Below, in pieces: positions 34,132-57,762 of a stretch of DNA of 64,000 bases. Each line of letters starts with the position of its first letter. Positions within the stretch are counted from its first letter, which is position 1. The notes beneath the pieces were generated by a model. That model ran no database searches and was not told the origin of the DNA. It worked only from the letters and a program-made list of their open reading frames with translations. Source of the stretch: Nitrospira sp. MA-1 (GTDB lineage Bacteria; Nitrospirota; Nitrospiria; Nitrospirales; UBA8639); the NCBI GenBank assembly GCA_032139905.1, contig JAQJDB010000005.1:541001-605000 (forward strand), given 5' to 3'. A program made the position numbers and the translations under genes.

Positions 34132-34588
34132 TTCGAATCTTCTCCGTTCTCCTCACTCACCACGAATCCTTTCTCCCTCATCATTTTTCCTTAAAACAAC
34201 AGATTGCTCTCTCATCGTTATTTTAAATGATTCCCAGGCCGTTCCTGTTTTTGAGTCATGCCATTTATAATGTTCTGAAACCCCTATACTTCTCTTTATC
34301 CGACGCCTGCCCTCCCTCTCCCCGTGGTCGAATATGCTATTTAACCGGTGGGCCTTGCCTTGGCGTAGCGAGTTGTTCCGCCTTTCTGTGTCTTGCGTTC
34401 GTCCAATCCAATGAGGCCGGGTGGGGCGTCAATGGTTATGGGTCTTTTTGCCAAAACCTGGCATCTATAAGCCTTTTGAAATGGGTTGTGTCACAAGCTG
34501 AGGAAAAAGACCATTTGGTGATGTACGAGAACACCCATGTGGGCGGCGACCCTGAAAGCGGAGCGGAGAGATTCAATAAGGAGATTTG
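34132..34588 (+). other. Intergenic stretch without recognised genes
   Basis: About 450 bases between the small lipoprotein and the thioredoxin-like gene. An open frame of 120 codons exists in one frame but is Cys/Pro/Ser-rich without ribosome site or family pattern. I see no terminator, repeat or RNA gene. Confidence 0.35.
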
Positions 34589-56297: not shown

Positions 56298-56894
56298 TTA
56301 GAATTTCACCTCGGGAGGCGTCGACACGGCCTTTTCATCAGCGACAGTAAAGTTTGGTTTCACCTCAAGTCCCAAGAGGTATTTGGCCGTCAGATTGGTC
56401 GGGAAAAATCGAACACCCTTATTGAATTCCGCGACCTTGTCGATGTAGCGCTTGCGGGCCACCGTGATGCGATTTTCCGTACCTTCCAGTTGGCTTTGGA
56501 GATCACGAAAATTTTCATTGGCTTTGAGGTCAGGATATTTCTCGACCACGACCATCAGCCTGGAAAGAGCAGAAGTCAGTCCCTGTTGAACCTCTTGGAA
56601 TTTCTGAAACAGTGTGGGATCTTTCAAGGCTTCCGGAGTGAGAGTTAGCCCCGCCACTTGGGAACGCGCTTGGGTCACCCCCTCCAGAGTGTCCTTTTCG
56701 TGGGCTGCATACCCTTTCACCGTCGCCACAAGATTCGGGATTAAATCCGCCCGGCGCTGGTATTGATTCAAGACCTCACTCCAGGCGGCATTGGTTTCTT
56801 CGTCCAGACCTTGGAGGTCGTTATAGCCGCATCCACTCAGGGATATAGTCAGCAGGAGCAATCCGAGCACAAGACGTTTACAAGAACTTTGCAT
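56298..56894 (-). CDS. LemA family protein
   Basis: A 198-residue membrane-anchored coiled-coil protein. The start at 56894 follows GAGGAGG. N-terminal signal/anchor with lipobox-like LSGCGYNDLQ, then the LemA core: VLNQYQRRADLIPNLVATVK, GYAAHEKDTLEGVTQARSQV, LMVVVEKYPDLKANENFRDL, GTENRITVARKRYIDKVAEF and FFPTNLTAKYLLGLEVKPNF. LemA and TPM/YgcG proteins are commonly encoded together; their joint role in envelope quality or signalling is not settled. First gene of the operon. Confidence 0.92.
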   Translation of the reverse strand: MQSSCKRLVLGLLLLTISLSGCGYNDLQGLDEETNAAWSEVLNQYQRRADLIPNLVATVKGYAAHEKDTLEGVTQARSQVAGLTLTPEALKDPTLFQKFQEVQQGLTSALSRLMVVVEKYPDLKANENFRDLQSQLEGTENRITVARKRYIDKVAEFNKGVRFFPTNLTAKYLLGLEVKPNFTVADEKAVSTPPEVKF

Positions 56895-57216
56895 TATCCA
56901 TTCCTCCTCTGCGAGATAAGCCGGCGGTCCACTCAACAGGGCGTCATTATCAGATAATCACCGATATCGTGAAAACAAGAAATAGACAAATGATCGAGGA
57001 GGTAGGTGGGAAAGTCGGAGATGATTGTTAATTGTGGCACCCTTAGCAAAAAAGAGCAAATCTAATGAGATACGATTCTTTTCAGAAATTAGTCAAAATT
57101 AGGTGAAGCCTCAGACAAAAGGAATAGGATAGGTCATTGAAAAAAATCTCATAGCAATTGACATTTTTCCCTTTTGCGATTTGGGAAAAGATCGGCTGGC
57201 AGCCGGGGCTTTTTGG

Positions 57217-57345
57217 CAAAAGACCCAAAACCATTGGCGCCCCGTTCGGCCTCATTCTAATGGGTGGACGCTGTTTTTGAAAGGACGGGCTAACTCGCGA
57301 TGCTCAGACAGTGCCCGTCGGTTTATTAGGGCGTCCACCCCATGG
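57217..57345. repeat. Nested inverted-repeat element (structured, probably dispersed)
   Basis: Outer arms GGGTGGACGC (57262-57271) and GCGTCCACCC (57331-57340) enclose inner arms GACGGGC (57284-57290) and GCCCGTC (57313-57319). The internal loops are U/A-rich and the apical loop is about 22 bases. A small hairpin with CTTTTTGGCAAAAG flanks it (about 57210-57223). The region looks like the intergenic, RNA-structured repeats seen in many copies in some genomes. No gene is supported in 56895-57375. Confidence 0.6.
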
Positions 57346-57375
57346 GTTTGGTCGGAAGGCGTCGGTTAGGATCGA

Positions 57376-57762
57376 TTAACCTTGGTTTTGAAGAGATTGG
57401 GCTTCTAAAATTTTATCAAGAGACGCCGGGGAGTAGGTTGGGGGTTTGACCCATTTGCCGTCTTCCCGTTTGTGGCCGCCGACTTTGCTCATGTTCGACC
57501 GATGGACTTCCTTGAAGACCGGCTCCATGTCAATGCCCAGGGACACGGCGGTGCCATAGACGACATACAGCAAATCAGCAAGCTCCTTCGCAATTGAGGG
57601 TAAGTCCTTTCCCTGCATGGCTTCCTGCAGTTCGTCGAATTCTTCCTGGATGAGACGTTTCCGAAGGAGTTGGGTTGGCTCATCGGGGATCGAGGGAGTG
57701 GGAGACACGTGGATCTCAAATTGCTTGTGGAATTCCTGGACCATGCGTTGCGCGTCGTTCAC
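57376..57762 (-). CDS. MazG-like nucleotide pyrophosphohydrolase
   Basis: A 128-residue all-alpha pyrophosphohydrolase of the MazG/PRA-PH superfamily. The metal-binding pattern is visible in LIQEEFDELQEAMQGKD and IAKELADLLYVVYGTAVSLG. The remainder, EVHRSNMSKVGGHKREDGKW, is shared with PRA-PH-like and integron-associated dNTP pyrophosphatases. Likely removes pyrophosphate from a (d)NTP or related nucleotide. It lies 56 bases downstream of the glycerate kinase gene on the same strand. Confidence 0.82.
   Translation of the reverse strand: MNDAQRMVQEFHKQFEIHVSPTPSIPDEPTQLLRKRLIQEEFDELQEAMQGKDLPSIAKELADLLYVVYGTAVSLGIDMEPVFKEVHRSNMSKVGGHKREDGKWVKPPTYSPASLDKILEAQSLQNQG

Follow-up and report, generated by a model that had tools for sequence, protein, structure and literature searches.

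Bacterial MITEs and other dispersed intergenic palindromic repeats are short, gene-less, intergenic, palindromic, multicopy and sharp-ended, and REPs are several-fold shorter than the ~190-bp unit that we describe here from Nitrospira sp. MA-1. This unit resembles the bacterial MITEs and dispersed palindromic repeats in being short, devoid of genes, intergenic, palindromic, present in many copies and sharply bounded. Unlike MITEs, it has neither a terminal inverted repeat of its own nor a target duplication, and its long fold and unpaired motifs are conserved across phyla. With REP/RAYT systems it has in common that it is an intergenic palindrome without target duplication, but it is longer, its motifs differ and its copy-rich genomes lack a Y1 gene. 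Where its copies gather into islands, folded sites pointing in the same direction lie between toxin-antitoxin-rich cassettes whose order varies by species, as in integron cassette arrays and CALINs (the subject of the IntegronFinder paper, PMC9024848). Unlike those arrays, the islands have no integrase over the cut-off and comprise two arms facing each other round a slot, and copies of the repeat are also scattered singly. In occupying a fixed chromosomal site at which defence systems differ between genomes, the islands further resemble the core defence hotspots of Pseudomonas aeruginosa (PMC10250203); unlike at those hotspots, the slot here is flanked by inward-pointing arms made of a mobile repeat. 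We consider it probable (roughly 0.6) that the unit is a non-autonomous mobile structured repeat, without genes of its own and dependent on an enzyme acting in trans, which secondarily became a cassette or recombination border.

The window, that is, the whole stretch of 64,000 nucleotides that was analysed, had been the subject of an earlier note that pointed to two nested perfect stems of 10 and 7 pairs in a gene-free gap. Both stems are present and perfect: 57262-57271 pairs with 57331-57340 (10 pairs) and, nested within it, 57284-57290 pairs with 57313-57319 (7 pairs), the two lying between a PRA-PH/MazG-like gene (57376-57762, minus strand) and a lemA-family gene on the opposite side (56298-56936, minus strand). 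By itself the stem is weak evidence, because the fold z-scores are small and nested pairs also arise in shuffles. The folding energy of the stretch is unremarkable relative to shuffles (z −1.87 for the plus strand and −1.48 for the minus strand), and the window contains 13 ten-base inverted repeats with one nested case, against means of 6.4 and 0.3 in 20 dinucleotide shuffles, four of which yielded at least one nested case. Fold energy was dropped as proof of structure on account of these small z-scores, and copies and covariation were used instead. Chance is ruled out because the genome itself holds 42 BLAST and 115 covariance-model copies, with compensatory changes among them.

Setting the 42 own-genome BLAST matches (query 57190-57375) in one direction defined a unit of ~190 nt, which in the window occupies 57182-57365 on the minus strand and reads from 57365 to 57182 (type A, 3' end worn; covariance model 137.5 bits, E 5.2e-36; edges taken from copies at unrelated loci). 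The span 57217-57345 to which the earlier note had drawn attention is real and forms the middle of this unit, but it is too narrow, with the P4 and P5 hairpins, the spread and the islands all lying beyond it. On the element strand (the window's minus strand), the 5' part consists of helix P1 (GACGCC../..GGCGTC; arms at approximately 57349-57363 and 57236-57249, placed from alignment A1 and pair counts) around P2, which is the 10-pair stem with its 5' arm at 57331-57340, and P3, the 7-pair stem with its 5' arm at 57313-57319, both located by the stem check and by covariation. On top sits the conserved apical loop TGTYTGAGC..GCGAGTT, found at 57292-57310 as TGTCTGAGC..GCGAGTT and delimited by comparing copies, including those of the superfamily alignment. 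The 3' part is made up of a conserved single-stranded linker, AATGGTTTTGG (57225-57235; invariant columns in alignments A1 and A4), followed by hairpin P4 (NNNCTTTTG-CCGAAA-CAAAAGNNN) and hairpin P5 (GCCGGG..CCCGGC). The window copy, which begins 10 bases after the stop of the PRA-PH/MazG-like gene, retains P1 to P3, while its P4 and P5 are worn to degenerate remains (57182-57224, where numerous pairs are broken when the copy is aligned to the model), and it is most likely an inert leftover. A second and more worn copy in the window lies at 34300-34480 on the plus strand (84.6 bits, E 1.1e-21), and its P4 and P5 are degenerate too. Both strands of the worn 3' end of the first copy also show, at 57192-57206, hairpins that resemble terminators and carry T-runs (two found, 0.9 expected).

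The helices covary, and the fold has been preserved through compensatory changes. In alignment A1, which comprises 28 of the 30 loci from the own-genome BLAST (loci existed for all but 12 of the 42 matches, and L013 and L021 were omitted as carrying another inserted repeat), 94.0% of the pair cells are paired, as against 88.0% after shuffling and at most 48.2% in slid versions; the structure was drawn from the same sequences, which biases the comparison with slid versions in its favour. Both-sided changes occur in 20 of the 48 pairs (10.3 when shuffled), compensatory cells number 82 (24.4 when shuffled), and the covariation score is 0.203 (0.102 when shuffled); the weakest helix, P3, has 85.7% of its cells paired. 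The repeat inserted at the two omitted loci is another dispersed short repeat (..CCTTCGA..CTCAGGACAGG..) that sits in, or extends, P4 at L013 and the apical loop at L021, and also occurs at C7:190417 and C5:105624. A coding reading of the P4 stretch, MVL.(T/P)FAETK, was rejected by eye because its variable codons change together with the pairing partner and its ATG is CTG in several copies; inspection by eye likewise revealed no reading frame common to the copies.

The earlier note had suspected a dispersed element, and the unit is indeed multicopy: the 4.76-Mb genome contains the 42 BLAST matches and, at E up to 0.001, the 115 covariance-model matches, a few of which overlap (150 of 1220 candidates were scored), and two complete genomes of the genus have 74 and 97 covariance-model matches at E up to 1e-9. 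Among 98 copies of 170-230 nt, 85 belong to type A and 13 to type B, a form of ~196 nt with different arms. The search of relatives by covariance, also proposed in the note, covered 97 genomes at E up to 1e-5 with stricter filters and found matches in all 19 other members of the genus and in 19 of 28 members of the family's other genera. At the same threshold and filters, none of 49 genomes from other families of the order had a match. In a phylum-wide sample of 198 genomes, the six with matches all fall within the same family. A single copy without compensatory changes, the outcome that the note had named as speaking against its proposal, did not occur.

Rfam gave no match for the window at the curated gathering score and none for 20 copy-bearing loci at E up to 1; for the region around position 57 kb at E up to 10 it returned two matches, both to unrelated families, due to chance and located in other parts of the gap. 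Plasmid and phage collections contained no blastn match to one type-A copy, a query that would miss the Gammaproteobacterial relatives described below, and a search of titles and abstract openings found no description of either the repeat or the islands. No name for the repeat family was found in Rfam or among these titles and abstract openings; it falls into the wider category of mobile repeats that are dispersed and structured.

Scanning a named genome collection for the linker-plus-P4 pattern recovered at least 120 stretches which, among the matches listed, come from many Nitrospirales as well as from Xanthomonas, Acinetobacter, Sedimenticola, Lysobacterales, Acidiferrobacteraceae, Natronospirales and one Buchananbacteria contig. 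Once 17 type-A hits had been set aside by regular expression, 108 further hits were left, some type-A copies having slipped through. The apical loop TGTYTGAGC..GCGAGTT, which is absent from the scan pattern, was found by regular expression in 64 of these 108 hits among the matches listed, bearing out the remark in the note that the apical phrase on the minus strand recalls repeats of other genomes; 34 of the 64 make up alignment A4. In the Gammaproteobacterial relatives the linker and hairpin are kept, the loop is often kept and the arms are replaced, with the apical loop missing or looser in several hits. The Acinetobacter relatives (L143, L148, L164 and L171) are low-copy, at two to three per genome, lie between differing housekeeping genes and have a shorter, looser apical loop. 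Three variable P4 pairs, compared over 135 copies with 33 arm combinations, comprise 346 Watson-Crick, 37 G-U, 9 A-C and 13 other cases. Allowing up to one mismatch, the hairpin pattern occurs 2 to 17 times in 12 of the 14 genomes behind the relative loci, once in G261 and not at all in G259, and the backward-pattern control is at zero in each of the 14. No neighbour gene common to the relatives in other taxa was seen at 14 loci. On these sequence patterns, relatives with replaced arms are seen to occur in other phyla.

Copies about 93% alike at unrelated loci match from CCGACGCC to CCCGGCA and then end abruptly, with longer flanks common to some pairs; these common abrupt edges argue that the unit is or was mobile. 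The suggestion of a mobile non-autonomous repeat made in the earlier note is thereby supported, without proof from a clean empty site. At the window locus the copy is common to G003, only its 5' part is found in G004 and G016, and the other seven aligned genomes have no copy; this provides no clean empty site because the 3' end of mazG also differs in the copy-less genomes. The unit is gene-less and multicopy, as MITEs are. Across the 98 copies of 170-230 nt there is no consistent target-site duplication, the flanks being pyrimidine-rich on the 5' side and A-rich on the 3' side, and the unit has no terminal inverted repeats of its own, its ends CCGACGCC and CCCGGCA not being complementary. A putative enzyme in trans would recognise the fold, either as RNA or as single-stranded DNA, and move the unit, and the fold would be needed for the spread of such a non-autonomous element.

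The same fold could instead belong to a structured RNA, transcribed from the minus strand of the window, that does a cellular job at each site, for example within the 3' part of transcripts, with its copies kept for their function. We regard this as unlikely, although covarying helices combined with a conserved unpaired loop and linker across phyla would suit it, as would the position of the window copy just after a gene on the same strand. If RNA of one strand is what matters, G-U mispairs are expected to outnumber A-C mispairs, and they do so by 150 to 85 in 99 aligned matches (pairs whose consensus is itself G-U set aside; alignment fitted to the model) and in the superfamily P4 counts given above. 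However, P1 alone has 23 G-U against 30 A-C, two single pairs contribute 47 of the 150 G-U cases, and when distinct P4 arms are counted once the ratio is 12 to 7 (p 0.36). The balance of mispairs thus leans towards RNA of the minus strand, a form that appears weakly favoured; of the structured RNA envisaged in the earlier note, the structure stands and the RNA form is a leaning. A function at each site is further opposed by the orientation of the neighbours, which is not fixed: among 115 copies, the upstream gene lies on the same strand in 49 and on the opposite strand in 26, and the downstream gene on the same strand in 40 and on the opposite strand in 49. A reading of the unit as a 3' UTR was rejected on this mixed orientation. 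The loss of P4 and P5 in the window copy and the lack of an Rfam match also weigh against an RNA with a cellular role, and a mobile repeat with a fold that serves its spread remains the reading that we prefer.

Outside the islands, the repeats lie mostly next to ordinary genes. An association with toxin-antitoxin genes as a general rule was rejected, since the neighbours belong mostly to ordinary Pfam families, none with more than three members (115 of 139 listed neighbouring proteins were covered).

In three species, arms of repeats face a central slot with differing defence systems, and cassettes have changed both order and island. This evidence comes from two loci in three genomes, whose genes were predicted with an in-house codon-usage script. 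On contig C3, 37 of the 115 own-genome matches fall into two regions, one at ~18-52 kb and one at 234-252 kb that stops where the contig stops, and syntenic regions in G010 and G018 resemble these islands of the MA-1 genome (G000), giving six islands in all. Along the six, the signs of the copies run from plus to minus, so forming arms of same-direction copies that face inward to the slot, with exceptions in G000, where one minus copy lies within a plus arm, and in G018, where two plus copies trail. Neighbouring copies at most 3 kb apart point in the same direction in 27 of 29, 21 of 21 and 22 of 23 cases inside the islands of the three genomes, and in 20 of 28, 16 of 19 and 16 of 21 cases outside them (the counts took in 115 of 115, 65 of 74 and 85 of 97 matches, respectively). 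Type I restriction occupies four of the slots: G000 I1, where a GmrSD-like gene accompanies it, G000 I2, and both I1 and I2 of G010. In G018, the I1 slot contains a DSR1-like system that is spread over two reading frames and matches SIR2 weakly, and the I2 slot contains a C5-methylase together with Vsr and a weak match to type IV. Different systems at one syntenic place, the mark of a defence hotspot, are thus found at the six island centres. The DSR1-like protein of G018 (C1:3448489-3452239, L302) is split over two overlapping reading frames, whether in reality or through an assembly error.

The genes between copies are small, several of them toxin-antitoxin or related (PIN, HicA, HTH_3, DUF2283, DUF433, DUF4926 and Unstab_antitox), with some larger ones. 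The island in which cassette families F02, F04, F13, F30/F31 and F33 lie, on the side of the left arm, differs from species to species; cassette order differs within the arms, the right arms partly keep theirs, and the genes beyond the arms largely do so. Among 256 ends of cross-species matches on unmasked sequence, 58 lie no more than 30 bp from the edge of a repeat (22.7% versus 6.8% expected) and 26 inside a repeat (10.2% versus 7.1% expected), and only five matches span a copy plus both flanks. A breakpoint test on masked repeats (20% of ends within 30 bp versus 3.3%) was discarded because masking itself ends matches. In 208 repeat-genome comparisons on masked sequence, both flanks were in line in 4, both out of line in 7, a single flank was conserved in 91 and neither in 106; this one-sided conservation may come in part from poorly conserved non-coding flanks.

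Arrays of same-direction cassettes, many of them toxin-antitoxin, that are reshuffled between species as in chromosomal integrons and bounded by a folded site might suggest that the repeat is a site-specific recombination site, akin to the integron attC, whose own recombinase moves the cassettes. We hold this to be decidedly improbable. An integron integrase over the TIGR02249 cut-off was found in none of 20 genus genomes, the partial matches in 19 of them being read as Xer-like. The paired R boxes found at the base of attC sites were not seen at the unit ends when the alignment consensus was inspected by eye. In 34 cross-species pairs there is neither a switch point nor a gradient inside the repeat, and hence no fixed exchange point, and the unit also occurs singly between ordinary genes. 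If the unit is a mobile repeat, as we favour, homologous recombination between same-direction copies of an arm could excise a cassette as a circle, a step for which no special enzyme would be needed. The circle could then reinsert at any other copy, with its direction kept and the arms staying uniform, and a mobile repeat would in this way have been turned into a cassette border. The lack of a gradient or switch point inside the repeat, and the mostly ordinary genes beside copies outside the islands, count against this border role as well.

Spread as a passenger, inside a DNA transposon of the MITE kind with GGATCATACAGAAT inverted ends, is very improbable for the family as a whole, although some copies do sit inside such a larger MITE. 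The start of a common 3' flank is present, in register, in 18 type-A copies; inverted ends are visible by eye on both sides of at least four (C7:71881, C2:87180, C7:190417 and C7:133110), and the GGATCATACAGAAT end has 18 matches in the genome versus none for its reversed control. Most copies, however, lack these flanks, MITEs with the same ends also enclose contents other than the repeat, and where other pairs cease to match, they do so at the edges of the 190-bp unit itself. Also observed, at G000 C4:272952-273263, C6:1062150-1062485 and C7:636752-636921, was a family of MITEs whose ends read GGATCATAC..GTATGATCC and whose contents vary, in some cases including the repeat. Transposition by a Y1 (RAYT) enzyme, with a REP-like repeat moving in the form of single-stranded DNA, would fit an intergenic, palindromic, multicopy unit without target duplication but is hardly credible, no Y1 gene having been found at E up to 1e-5 in the copy-rich G000 and G018 or in six further copy-bearing genomes (G022, G029, G031, G037, G040 and G044), which largely refutes present activity, although an enzyme lost since then may have existed.

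Beyond the probable non-autonomous mobile repeat, we tentatively propose, at somewhat less than even odds, a gene-less mobile class that extends over several phyla, depends on its fold for spread and became the border of an integrase-free platform, in which inward-facing arms of toxin-antitoxin cassettes hold and exchange anti-phage systems in a slot. The surprising part is the repeat as a cassette border round defence slots, seen in three genomes. If the proposal is true, a mobile repeat, probably together with general recombination, could give rise to integron-like arrays and swappable defence slots in which no integrase takes part, and new defence genes could be sought by a simple signature in the sequence, inward-pointing arms around a slot. 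The repeat superfamily itself is structured, lies outside Rfam and spans Nitrospirota and Gammaproteobacteria, and its description opens to testing both the mobilising enzyme and whether the fold forms in RNA or in single-stranded DNA.
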